DNA of 64,000 bases from positions 31,096 to 95,095 of the forward strand of contig JANQQQ010000028.1 in the NCBI GenBank assembly GCA_028284935.1, in the 5' to 3' direction. The translations under genes were made by a program, and so were the position numbers. The stretch comes from Croceivirga sp. Its GTDB lineage: Bacteria > Bacteroidota > Bacteroidia > Flavobacteriales > Flavobacteriaceae. Below, in pieces: positions 27,798 to 34,892 of the stretch (its first letter is position 1; each line of letters starts with the position of its first letter). The notes under the pieces are model-generated. The model was given only the letters and a program-made list of their open reading frames with translations, did not search any database and was not told where the DNA came from.

Positions 27798-29042
27798 ATG
27801 AAAAAGAACGCCCTACTGATTTTATCTTTTTTGACCTTAACCCTATTTTCTTGTGAGACTAATGATAATGAGGAAGATGGCGAATTTGCCGACTTTTTGG
27901 TCGCTAGACCCATTACCATGACTAGAGCCGAGTTTGCCAATAGCGTGGATATTATTGACCCAGCTCCTATAGACGAATCAGGAAAGATTTATGCCTACCG
28001 AGACTATATTTTTGTGAATGACAAGTACAAAGGAGTACATGTTATTGATAATAGCAATCCGGAATCCCCACAGAAAATTTCGTTCATCAAGATTGCTGGT
28101 AATGTGGACATTTCCATTAAAGACAACTTTTTGTACGCTGATAGCCTAACGGATTTAATTGTGCTTGATATTTCGGATATCAATAGCATTGAGATCGTAA
28201 ATCGCTTGGAAGGGGTGTTGCGGGACAATGTGGTATGGCCAGCGGCGGAGATTTTCGAGTGGGAGGACATCGATTACGAAAACGAAATTTTGGTGGGCTG
28301 GGAAACCACGGTTGAACGCCGCAAGATAGAGGAGGTCCGGACCGATATCTTCTTTGAAGACGCTGTTGCAGCAAACGACTCCGGAGGGGATACCGGACAA
28401 GGCGGTTCATTGGCAAGGTTCAAAATCGTTGGTGACTACTTGTACGCTGTGGACAGCCATAACATCAATGTTTTTGACATTTCCAATTTGGAGGCACCCC
28501 AAGATTTGGATGATGTCTATGCCGGCTTTGATATCGAGACTATTTTCAATAGGGGCGAACATTTGTTTTTGGGCAGTATGAGGGGGATGTACATTTATAA
28601 TATTTCAAATCCCGCCACTCCAACTTTTGTATCCGAGTTTGAACATGGTACGGCCTGTGATCCGGTGGTGGTCGATGAGAATTATGCTTACGTCACCCTA
28701 CGGGGAGGGAACTTTTGTGGTGCCACTGAAAGCGGATTGTACATAGTGGACATTACGACTATTGAACAGCCGGAGCTGAAAGTCATTTATCCAATGGATG
28801 AACCGTATGGACTTGGTATTAAAGACGATAAGTTGTTCGTTTGTGATGGAAGTTCGGGATTGAAGGTATACGATAAATCTGCAGTTCCTGACCTGCCACA
28901 GTTAAATCATTTTAAAGATATTGTTACGTTTGATGTTATTCCAATGGAAGAACAGTTGTTGATGGTCGGTGATGGAATCTTATACCAATATGAATATCTG
29001 GATAATGAAATTCATTTGATAAGTAGTTTGAATCTGAACTGA
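27798..29042 (+). CDS. LVIVD-repeat beta-propeller lipoprotein
   Basis: Lipobox TLFSCETN; repeated '[13 protein letters not shown]', '[13 protein letters not shown]', '[13 protein letters not shown]', '[13 protein letters not shown]', '[12 protein letters not shown]' units. Confidence 0.85.
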
Positions 29043-29043
29043 G

Positions 29044-29583
29044 ATGAAAGTATTTCGATATATTTTTTGGTTAGCCGCCCTGATGGTATTGGGTTTATCT
29101 TCATGCTCTTCGGATGACGGACAAAAGGAAGATTTAGAGGCGCAGTTCAATGCCCTTGTTCGGCTTTCGGAAAGTGTGGTCTGTGAGGACATTGGTGAAT
29201 GGAGATATGCCGGTTTAGGAGCAAAACCCTGTGGGGGACCTACGGATTATATTGCGTATTCCATTCGCATTGACACCGTTGATTTTCTAAGGCGATTGGA
29301 GGAGTACAACGAAGCGGTTCGTGCTAAGAATGAACGCGAAGGTTTAATTTCAGATTGTGCGCTGGAACCCGCACCAATCGGAGTGCAATGCCAAGATGGA
29401 AAACCGGTTTTAATTTATAGCCCTTGCGATTTGGAACCAGATGTTGGCCCATGCGATGCAGCATTTCCAAGATATTATTTTGATCAAGAGACTCAAGAGT
29501 GTAAGGAATTCATTTGGGGAGGTTGTGAGGGTACCGTGCCTTTTGAAACTATGGAAGAGTGCAGGATTTGCGAAGGTGGTTGA
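29044..29583 (+). CDS. lipoprotein with C-terminal Kunitz/BPTI-like domain
   Basis: Lipobox [11 protein letters not shown]-terminal [49 protein letters not shown] follows BPTI cysteine pattern; ATG one base after the LVIVD stop. Confidence 0.75.
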
Positions 29584-29632
29584 TCGCGAAACTCGATGAA
29601 AATCTAAATAATCCGCTCGCAATAATAGCATG

Positions 29633-29659
29633 AAATATCCCGTTTTTTACGGGATATTT
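29633..29659. terminator. intrinsic terminator after the Kunitz-like lipoprotein
   Basis: aaatatcccg-ttttttac-gggatattttttt hairpin. Confidence 0.8.
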
Positions 29660-29684
29660 TTTTGGTTTCAGTTTTCTGACAAAA

Positions 29685-29733: not shown

Positions 29734-32217
29734 ATGCCCAAGAACTTAGTCATAGTCGAGTCCCCTGCGAAGGCTAAAACCATAGAAAAATTTTTAGGAA
29801 AAGACTATCAGGTAGAGTCCAGTTTTGGACATATTGCTGATTTGCCCTCAAAGGAACTGGGCGTAGATGTCGATAAAAATTTTGAACCCAAATATATTGT
29901 TGACAGAGAGAAAAAAGCGCTGGTCAAAAAGCTAAAGGATTTGGCCAAAAAGGCGGACATCATTTGGCTGGCGAGTGATGAAGATCGTGAAGGAGAGGCC
30001 ATTTCCTGGCATTTGGCAGAACAGTTGGGACTGGATAGGGAAAAGACAAAAAGGATTGTTTTCAATTCCATTACAAAATCGGCGATTCAAAAAGCGATTG
30101 AAAACCCCAGAACGATCAATTATGATTTGGTCAATGCCCAACAGGCACGACGGGTTTTGGACAGACTGGTGGGATACGAACTTTCCCCGGTCTTATGGAA
30201 AAAGATAAAACCGGGACTTTCGGCAGGGCGTGTGCAGTCAGTTGCCGTGCGATTGATAGTCGAGCGTGAACGTGAGATCGATGCTTTCGATCCACAAGCC
30301 AGCTTTAGGATAAAGGCATCGTTTAAGACTGCTGACGGGAAAAATTTTGACGCTAAGCTGAACAAGGCATTTGAAAGTAAGCAAGCTGCTGAAGATTTTT
30401 TAAAAAATAATATTGGAGCAGATTTTTCCGTGGCCAAACTGGATAAAAAGCCGGCGAAAAAATCACCTGCAGCCCCATTTACTACTTCTACATTACAGCA
30501 AGAAGCATCACGAAAACTTTACTTTTCAGTGGGTCGTACCATGCAGGTAGCCCAGCGGTTATATGAGGCAGGGCTAATCACCTATATGAGGACGGACAGT
30601 GTCAATCTTTCCCAAGAGGCACTAAATGCAGCTAAAAGCGCCATAGTCTCCAACTACGGCGAGGAATACAGTACCGTTAGGAATTACACAGGGAAATCAA
30701 AAGGGGCGCAGGAAGCACACGAGGCGATTCGCCCTACCGATATGAATTTACAATCTTCAAACTTGGAGCGCGATCAAGCAAAACTCTATGAACTCATTTG
30801 GAAACGAACCCTTGCCTCCCAAATGAGCGACGCTCAATTGGAGCGTACCAATGTTAGGATTGAGTCGAATGGGCATTCCGAAGAATTTACGGCCAATGGA
30901 GAGGTAGTCACCTTTGATGGTTTTCTCAAGGTATATCTCGAAGGAGTGGATGAAGAGGACGCCGTTGAGCAGGAAGGAATGTTGCCAGCCATGAGAGTCG
31001 GTGAACAATTGCATAATAATTATATTAGTGCTACTGAGCGCTTTTCAAGACCTCCTTATCGTTACACAGAAGCCTCTTTGGTCAAAAAATTGGAAGAGTT
31101 GGGCATTGGTCGACCTTCCACCTATGCGCCAACCATTTCCACGATTCAAAATAGGGAATATGTCCAAAAGGGTGCAATTGAGGGAACGGAGCGTTCTTAT
31201 GCCGAACTCGTTTTGGAGTCGGGTGAACTGACCGAAAAGAAACTGAGTGAAATGGTAGGGTCGGATAAAGGTAAATTGGTGCCCACGGATATTGGGATGA
31301 TTGTCAACGACTTCTTGGTCAATCATTTTACCAATATTTTGGATTATAACTTTACGGCCAAGCTGGAAGAGGATTTTGATGAAATTGCTTCGGGGGACGA
31401 AGACTGGCAAAAAGTTATGCGCGAGTTCTATGAGAATTTTCATCCCACGGTTTTGGATGTTGAAGAAAATGCCGAGCGTGCCAGCGGCGAGCGTGTATTG
31501 GGAACAGACCCAAAAACAGGAAGGCAAGTGGCTGCACGATTGGGACGTTTTGGACCTATGGTACAGATCGGTACGGTTGAAGAAGAGGAAAAACCCTTAT
31601 TCGCCAGTTTGTTGCCGGATCAATCCATTTCCACAATTACCTATGAAGAAGCCATGGAGCTGTTTCAACTTCCAAAAAAGCTGGGAGTATATGAAGGTGA
31701 GGAAGTGGAAACCAATGTAGGGCGCTATGGTCCCTATGTCCGTTTTGGGAAAAAGTTCATTTCATTGGATAGGGGTGAAAGTGCTTTTGATGTGGATATG
31801 GAAAGGGCCATTGAATTGATTAAGGAGAAGCAAAAAGCCGATGCACCCATCGCCAATTATGAAGGTAAGGATGTGACCAAAGGTGTTGGTCGTTTTGGTC
31901 CTTTTATCAAATGGGATGGGATGTTCATCAATGTAAACAAGAAATACGACTTTGATAATTTATCACAGACCGATATTCAGGAGCTGATTGAGACAAAAAA
32001 GCAAAAGGAAAAAGAAAAGTTGGTTCAGTCCTGGCCAGAGGAGGGCATCCGCATTGAAAAAGCAAGGTGGGGCAGACATAACGTCATTAAAGGAAGGATT
32101 AAGGTTGAACTCTCAAAAGATGTGGACGCGGCTCAACTTTCTTTGGAGGCTGCCAAAGAGCTCATTGATAAAAAAACACCGAAAAGAAAAACAAAGACTA
32201 AAGCAAAAGCTAAATAA
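29734..32217 (+). CDS. topA: type I DNA topoisomerase TopA
   Basis: MPKNLVIVESPAKAKTIEKFLG, LASDEDREGEAISWHL, LITYMRTDSVNLS, IGRPSTYAPTI; start moved to internal Met 17. Confidence 0.97.
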   Translation: MPKNLVIVESPAKAKTIEKFLGKDYQVESSFGHIADLPSKELGVDVDKNFEPKYIVDREKKALVKKLKDLAKKADIIWLASDEDREGEAISWHLAEQLGLDREKTKRIVFNSITKSAIQKAIENPRTINYDLVNAQQARRVLDRLVGYELSPVLWKKIKPGLSAGRVQSVAVRLIVEREREIDAFDPQASFRIKASFKTADGKNFDAKLNKAFESKQAAEDFLKNNIGADFSVAKLDKKPAKKSPAAPFTTSTLQQEASRKLYFSVGRTMQVAQRLYEAGLITYMRTDSVNLSQEALNAAKSAIVSNYGEEYSTVRNYTGKSKGAQEAHEAIRPTDMNLQSSNLERDQAKLYELIWKRTLASQMSDAQLERTNVRIESNGHSEEFTANGEVVTFDGFLKVYLEGVDEEDAVEQEGMLPAMRVGEQLHNNYISATERFSRPPYRYTEASLVKKLEELGIGRPSTYAPTISTIQNREYVQKGAIEGTERSYAELVLESGELTEKKLSEMVGSDKGKLVPTDIGMIVNDFLVNHFTNILDYNFTAKLEEDFDEIASGDEDWQKVMREFYENFHPTVLDVEENAERASGERVLGTDPKTGRQVAARLGRFGPMVQIGTVEEEEKPLFASLLPDQSISTITYEEAMELFQLPKKLGVYEGEEVETNVGRYGPYVRFGKKFISLDRGESAFDVDMERAIELIKEKQKADAPIANYEGKDVTKGVGRFGPFIKWDGMFINVNKKYDFDNLSQTDIQELIETKKQKEKEKLVQSWPEEGIRIEKARWGRHNVIKGRIKVELSKDVDAAQLSLEAAKELIDKKTPKRKTKTKAKAK

Positions 32218-33506: not shown

Positions 33507-34892
33507 ATGAGAAAGCTATTAATATCATCTCTAGTACTTGTTTTTTTATTGACCAGCTGTGGGTCAAAATCAAGGTCTAAAGGTGAGCTGGTCGGTGTGC
33601 GAGGGAAGAAGTGGTATCCCGAGAAGCCATATGGAATGGAATTGATACCTCGAGGCTCCTTTATCATGGGTAAGGCCGATGAAGATCAAGCCAAAATATT
33701 GAACGCTCCTACTAGAACTGTTACCGTACGTTCCTTTTACATGGACGATACGGAAATTACCAACAGTGAATATCGTCAGTTCGTGGAATGGGTGAAGGAT
33801 TCCGTTGCGAGAACCAAATTGGCCATTTTGGCCGATGAACTGGGTCTTGGACCGGAAGACGACGATAGCATTGGTGAATTTGCCTTTCAAAGTGCGGATA
33901 CCACTAAACTATCCGTTTGGGAAAAATACAAAATTGACAACTATCTAGGTATGGGGGATGATCCTTACGAAGGATATGCCCTTAACAAGAACGTTGATTT
34001 GGTATGGGACACCAATGATTATCCAGATGAATTCTATGCTGAAGTCATGGATTCCCTCTATTTGGCGGAAGAAGAGACCTACAACGGTCAGCGTACCATT
34101 GACGTAAAGGCATTGAAGTACAAGTACAATTGGATGGATATTGAAGCCGCTGCAAGAGCCAAGTCAGGCAAACGAAGTGATTTTATTAAATCCGAACAAT
34201 TGGCCATTTATCCAGATACTACAGTTTGGATACGTGATTTTGAATATTCGTACAACGAACCTATGCACAATGATTACTTCTGGCATGATGCCTACAGTGA
34301 TTATCCCGTAGTAGGTGTAAATTGGCAACAGGCCAAGGCATTTTGTCATTGGAGGACCAAGTTCAAGAATGATGACCAAAAAAGCCGTGGTAAGCAATTT
34401 GTGAATCAATTCCGTTTGCCCACGGAAGCTGAATGGGAATATGCTGCAAGAGGGGGTATCGAAGGCGGTACGTATCCATGGGGTGGTCCTTATGTGATAA
34501 GTGATACCGGTTGTTTTATGGCCAACTTCAAGCCCCAAAGAGGGGATTATGCTGCAGATGCGGCCTTGTATACCGTAGAGGCCAAGTCGTATGAACCTAA
34601 CGATTTCAATTTGTACAATATGGCCGGTAACGTATCTGAATGGACAAATTCCAGTTACGACCCCGGAGCTTATGATTACGTTTCCACAATGAATCCAAAT
34701 GCTGGTTCTGGTCAAAATAGGAGAAAAGTTATCCGAGGCGGTTCATGGAAAGACGTAGCGTACTTCTTACAAGTGAGTACCCGAGATTACGAATATCAAG
34801 ATTCTGCCCGAAGTTATATTGGCTTTAGGACAGTACAGGATTATATGGGAGAGGAAGATTCCACTAGGGGTCAAGGCCTTCCAAACAGATAA
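33507..34892 (+). CDS. gldK: gliding motility / T9SS lipoprotein GldK (FGE-like fold)
   Basis: Lipobox LLTSCGSKS; GMELIPRGSFIMG..., RLPTEAEWEYAARGG, VIRGGSWKD; followed by gldL, gldM and gldN. Confidence 0.96.
   Translation: MRKLLISSLVLVFLLTSCGSKSRSKGELVGVRGKKWYPEKPYGMELIPRGSFIMGKADEDQAKILNAPTRTVTVRSFYMDDTEITNSEYRQFVEWVKDSVARTKLAILADELGLGPEDDDSIGEFAFQSADTTKLSVWEKYKIDNYLGMGDDPYEGYALNKNVDLVWDTNDYPDEFYAEVMDSLYLAEEETYNGQRTIDVKALKYKYNWMDIEAAARAKSGKRSDFIKSEQLAIYPDTTVWIRDFEYSYNEPMHNDYFWHDAYSDYPVVGVNWQQAKAFCHWRTKFKNDDQKSRGKQFVNQFRLPTEAEWEYAARGGIEGGTYPWGGPYVISDTGCFMANFKPQRGDYAADAALYTVEAKSYEPNDFNLYNMAGNVSEWTNSSYDPGAYDYVSTMNPNAGSGQNRRKVIRGGSWKDVAYFLQVSTRDYEYQDSARSYIGFRTVQDYMGEEDSTRGQGLPNR

Follow-up and report, generated by a model that had tools for sequence, protein, structure and literature searches.

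The Kunitz/BPTI inhibitor domain is common in animals and, to our knowledge, has been studied almost only there, which raises the question of what such a domain does in a small lipoprotein of a marine flavobacterium. The gene lies within a 64,000-nucleotide stretch of Croceivirga sp. DNA (here called the window, to which all positions refer), and a preliminary description had interpreted the protein as a surface-anchored inhibitor of an acidic-P1-preferring protease, or as a repurposed scaffold. Our analysis upholds the Kunitz fold, the lipoprotein character and the rarity of the domain, finds no support for a dedicated acidic-P1 design, and adds three elements which that account had overlooked, namely an operon with an LVIVD-repeat gene, a second cysteine-rich module and a flavobacterial Kunitz clade (Table 1).

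Table 1. Features of the LVIVD–topA locus in the window.
Feature	Position	Strand	Details
LVIVD-repeat lipoprotein gene, first in operon	27798..29042	+	414 aa; Pfam LVIVD E 7.8e-14
Kunitz-bearing lipoprotein gene	29044..29583	+	ATG, 179 aa; begins 1 bp past LVIVD stop codon
Signal peptide and lipobox (LSSC)	29044..29106	+	lipidated Cys21, then S-S-D-D; sequence inspection
N-terminal 4-Cys module (Cys47, 63, 105, 116)	29122..29418	+	no Pfam family, no PDB fold match
Kunitz/BPTI domain	29425..29571	+	Cys128-Cys176 (BPTI C5-C55), spacing 9-16-8-12-3; HMM, PDB search, fold
P1 residue Asp138 (BPTI position 15)	29455..29457	+	third most variable of 43 non-Cys clade positions
Intrinsic terminator	29632..29660	+	12-bp stem, TATCCCG...CGGGATA
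topA, conserved downstream flank of slot	29734..32217	+	Pfam, synteny

The presence of a genuine Kunitz/BPTI domain is confirmed. The sequence and cysteine spacing first quoted for it were exact, corresponding to residues 128-176 at the C-terminal end of the protein, and a Pfam HMM search matched this part to PF00014 with 53.5 bits (E 2.7e-14; curated cut-off 21 bits), finding no second Pfam family in the same protein and no further Kunitz match in the whole genome. A phmmer search of PDB chains returned 109 distinct sequences at E <= 0.01, of which those listed are Kunitz-type, with SmCI, TFPI and boophilin at the top; the best-matching stretch was domain 3 of SmCI (9.7e-12), with BPTI proper at 9e-6. 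An AlphaFold2 model of the lipoprotein, for which 21 relatives served as input, has a mean pLDDT of 86.6 (88-94 in the Kunitz part), and Foldseek matched it to Kunitz structures with prob 1.0 and an rmsd of mostly 1.4-2.0 A. The six cysteines stand in BPTI order, and the fold match together with their invariance among homologues implies that disulfides would form in the pattern 1-6, 2-4, 3-5.

Compared with the Kunitz/BPTI family (PF00014, MEROPS I2), the domain shares the six-Cys framework, the GPC-x-A loop, the R-Y-Y-F core, the GGC motif and the predicted fold, but it is one residue shorter in each of two intervals, from Cys4 to Cys5, where VP stands in place of the BPTI motif NN, and from Cys5 to Cys6. 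It also has Trp instead of Tyr35 and an acidic P1. Among individual solved domains, sequence comparison ranks SmCI domain 3 highest (PDB 4bd9; SmCI is the carboxypeptidase inhibitor of Sabellastarte magnifica). The chain is 54% identical in the Foldseek alignment, with GPC..SFPRYYYD and CKEFI.GGCEG in common, but SmCI is a tri-domain secreted animal protein with a Lys P1, a full NNF loop and no lipid anchor.

The Kunitz domain is the last of three parts, following a signal peptide with lipobox and a 4-Cys module at about residues 27-125. The lipobox is evident on inspection, in keeping with the earlier assignment to a bacterial lipoprotein, and a surface location would be signalled by a lipobox together with a polar residue, then an acidic run after Cys +1. 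Acidic lipoprotein export signals of this kind are known in Bacteroidota, as SDDDD in B. fragilis and SDDFE in F. johnsoniae (PMC5080379), and the post-Cys sequence SSDDG resembles both, such that the protein is probably located in the outer membrane and surface-exposed. The 4-Cys module follows the pattern C..D..W....G.K.CGGP..YIAY...SDC...P...C..G..V..Y and was modelled as alpha-beta-beta-alpha-beta-beta with a pLDDT of 88.4; it matched no family in Pfam, and its fold gave no significant match against PDB or viral structures (best E 0.73 and 0.16). It also occurs as a stand-alone lipoprotein and is widespread in the genus; a further copy is found at G000:C21:135387-135749 (L072).

Kunitz domains are rare in these bacteria, as had been supposed, with 11 credible matches in 400 genomes of the family, none in 14 control genomes, and presence in two of the 11 genomes of the genus. 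A twelfth match (G186, L012, 22 bits) was discarded, as it lies antisense within a giant open frame. When 12 distinct flavobacterial domains were placed in a tree with ten animal and seven other bacterial domains (PDB alignments supplied nine from animals, with BPTI added by hand as the tenth), they formed one clade (96/92) with all of the comparison set outside it. All 12 have the spacing 9-16-8-12-3, and thus the one-residue deletions in common, together with the signature WGGC-x-G-x-VPF. The canonical inhibitory loop (Gly12, Cys14-Cys38, a small P1', Gly36-Gly37) is present and invariant, with Gly12, Ala16, Gly36, Gly37 and all six cysteines identical in the 12 homologues. Most pairwise comparisons are saturated at synonymous sites. 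The two pairs that escape saturation give dN/dS values of 0.04 and 0.11, so the domain is under purifying selection and maintained by it; a third pair gives 0.08, but its dS of 2.5 makes this value unreliable.

Against this fixed framework, P1 varies. Asp138 had been identified correctly, but the idea of a dedicated acidic-P1 design was not supported, as the 12 homologues carry six different residues at this position (D, E, F, L, K, N; 2.36 bits) and the close relatives L013 and L014, of the same architecture, have Phe. This variability likewise ruled out Asp as a conserved specialisation; Asp138 is, judged on the 12 homologues, one of several P1 versions without special design. P1 is acidic in seven of the 12, and a Glu/Asp-specific target is therefore possible for some members. 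Four different residues occur at P3, and the two positions adjoining the terminal Cys are more variable than P1 in these 12 sequences. Protease-contact positions average 1.26 bits versus 0.81 elsewhere, a difference that is suggestive only (permutation p = 0.08, 12 sequences), and hypervariable contact sites are not claimed here to prove an arms race. Most known serine proteases accept Asp poorly at P1, and it is neither the Lys nor the Arg of a trypsin-type inhibitor. The earlier statement that trypsin-type inhibition is unlikely was reasonable; it is not absolute, however, as PDB entry 3btd, which we take to be the Asp variant of BPTI, belongs to a set of solved complexes of ‘ten P1 variants’ of BPTI bound to trypsin, and P1 alone therefore does not decide activity.

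The gene order miaB, LVIVD, slot, topA, an arginase-family gene and gldK/L is kept across genera, and in the window the T9SS cluster follows about 4 kb downstream of the Kunitz gene (gldK at 33507, then gldL and gldM), bearing out the description of a T9SS-bearing bacterium. Relatives of the LVIVD-repeat lipoprotein, a predicted surface beta-propeller, occur in 158 of the 400 genomes. In two relatives that lack the small lipoprotein gene (G783 and G782), the TATCCCG...CGGGATA terminator stands directly behind LVIVD, and from its shared position it follows that the slot gene would lie within the LVIVD transcript. Given also the 1-bp gap, the Kunitz gene therefore appears to occupy a slot in the LVIVD operon, and its position suggests that the two genes are co-transcribed as a two-gene operon.

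The data establish the fold family, the lipoprotein signal, the operon layout, the clade, the P1 variability and the purifying selection; protease inhibition, a surface location, the target and the reason for the LVIVD pairing are inferred. By a narrow balance of probability, we regard the protein as a standard-mechanism inhibitor, anchored at the cell surface, whose target would be an extracellular serine protease. Its specificity would be interchangeable, and it would be co-expressed with the LVIVD protein. The lipoprotein would be anchored in the outer membrane with the Kunitz domain displayed at the cell surface, where it would inhibit its target by substrate-like, tight binding. The loop framework (Gly12, Cys14-Cys38, Ala16, Gly36-Gly37) would stay fixed, while P1 and P3 would be swapped between species, and such exchange may retarget the inhibitor to proteases of competitors, predators or hosts, or of the bacterium's own T9SS secretome. 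For the Asp138 protein, a trypsin-like target is improbable, and the enzyme would be one that prefers an acidic P1 or tolerates various residues there. The LVIVD beta-propeller lipoprotein would be made from the same two-gene operon.

The tightness of the LVIVD linkage suggests a job beyond free inhibition and speaks against this reading. In the main rival to an inhibitor, the Kunitz fold may have been repurposed as a disulfide-locked docking module for the LVIVD propeller or for a surface ligand, inhibiting no protease, which we consider possible if somewhat unlikely. Ten of the 12 flavobacterial Kunitz domains are encoded directly behind LVIVD, one of them with a 205-nt gap, and non-inhibitory uses of the Kunitz fold are well known in animals; the frequency of acidic P1 residues would also fit. 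Among 97 LVIVD loci inspected, including that of the window, most pass straight from LVIVD into topA, and 14 have a small lipoprotein gene behind LVIVD, each encoding a Kunitz domain, a 4-Cys module or both, within a scan for lipobox-type ORFs or HMM matches up to 500 nt that may miss other occupants. The slot of relatives can therefore hold Kunitz alone, the 4-Cys module alone, both or nothing, as if these were interchangeable LVIVD partners. Conversely, one Kunitz gene stands before topA without LVIVD (L027) and another at an unrelated locus (L021), and a docking module would not predict an invariant inhibitory loop (Ala16, Gly36-37) beside a varying P1.

Two of the 14 occupied slots place the Kunitz domain behind a different N-terminal region. 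This third slot architecture (L020:5373-6050 and L023:5460-6137) has about 150 residues without a Pfam match before the domain.

The pairing itself can be followed in three genomes of the genus (G778, G779 and G781; loci L069, L068 and L067) in which the flanks are ~90-95% identical to those of the window, while LVIVD and the module are only ~60% identical and LVIVD falls in a distant clade of the LVIVD tree; LVIVD and its partner therefore appear to have been replaced together, which would support a functional pair. These genomes carry the 4-Cys module alone, and no Kunitz remnant was readable before topA in them. G778 has an ambiguous EPGPGN tail before topA. Separately, a second LVIVD-like gene at L075:3737-5007 (G000:C13) is broken into two neighbouring ORFs with a slight overlap, for which sequencing error is unlikely because both parts also come apart in the same three genomes.

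A second alternative, which we consider improbable, is that the domain was acquired from a marine animal and serves as a host-interaction factor, blocking host defence or digestive proteases. The nearest solved relative is indeed a domain of a marine annelid inhibitor, and a precedent exists in F6W77 of Acinetobacter baumannii, for which the authors raise the idea of host transfer (PMC11511053). The SmCI branch of the tree is weak, however (81/69 on about 50 columns), the clade spans several genera at one chromosomal locus, and the GC of the Kunitz gene is near that of adjoining genes (0.45 vs 0.42-0.44), though its GC3 is lower (0.32 vs 0.44-0.46). As for a mobile origin, the Kunitz domain was unmatched on plasmids and the whole protein was unmatched in phages. 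Finally, a relic or passenger without function, for which one might cite the patchy presence in the genus and the five changes in Kunitz presence on the LVIVD tree, is very improbable, being disfavoured by the purifying selection seen in the two resolvable pairs, by the intact ORFs and by the invariant cysteines and loop framework.

Returning to the surface-anchored inhibitor, a broader and distinctly tentative picture, more doubtful than not, is of a bacterial surface system that would pair the LVIVD propeller lipoprotein, by way of one exchangeable gene slot, with small disulfide-rich lipoproteins carrying a Kunitz domain, the 4-Cys module or both. The Kunitz partner would be an inhibitor whose P1 may have diversified between species as part of an arms race against proteases of the environment.

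Kunitz inhibitors have been recorded in bacteria before, and the window gene would be a variant of that kind. F6W77 (KABP1-5) is a secreted bacterial protein of five tandem, animal-type Kunitz domains with Arg or Leu at P1; some of the domains inhibit factors Xa/XIa and others act on elastase, a division that apparently follows the P1 type, and the protein is thus a precedent for serine protease inhibition by bacterial Kunitz domains. The text consulted mentions neither a lipid anchor nor an LVIVD operon for it (PMC11511053). Within the same phylum, a Saprospiraceae protein (L017:4878-6011) has five tandem PF00014 domains with P1 D/D/D/Q/L and a GPCDA loop; it differs in having CxxxC ends and NNY loops of full length, as in animals, and it lies outside the flavobacterial clade and at a different locus. 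No description of the flavobacterial Kunitz clade, the LVIVD slot or the 4-Cys companion was found in full-text open-licence literature, where Kunitz with Flavobacteriaceae yielded fish responses only and no such protein.

As a compact, selected and lipid-anchored clade at one locus, these domains make a eukaryote-type inhibitor on a bacterial surface accessible to small-scale tests, with natural P1 variants available in near-identical frames. The conserved operon of LVIVD is brought to notice as well, together with a lipoprotein module of four cysteines that has no assigned family or fold. Kunitz sequences also occur further afield: at L031:1408-1614, a Kunitz start (CSLKPDAGFCMAAFKRYYYD) stops mid-domain, as if frameshifted or mis-sequenced, and short Kunitz lipoproteins from two other families of the class (L029:1411-1656 and L030:1417-1665) carry a divergent YSGCSQxGFAT signature.
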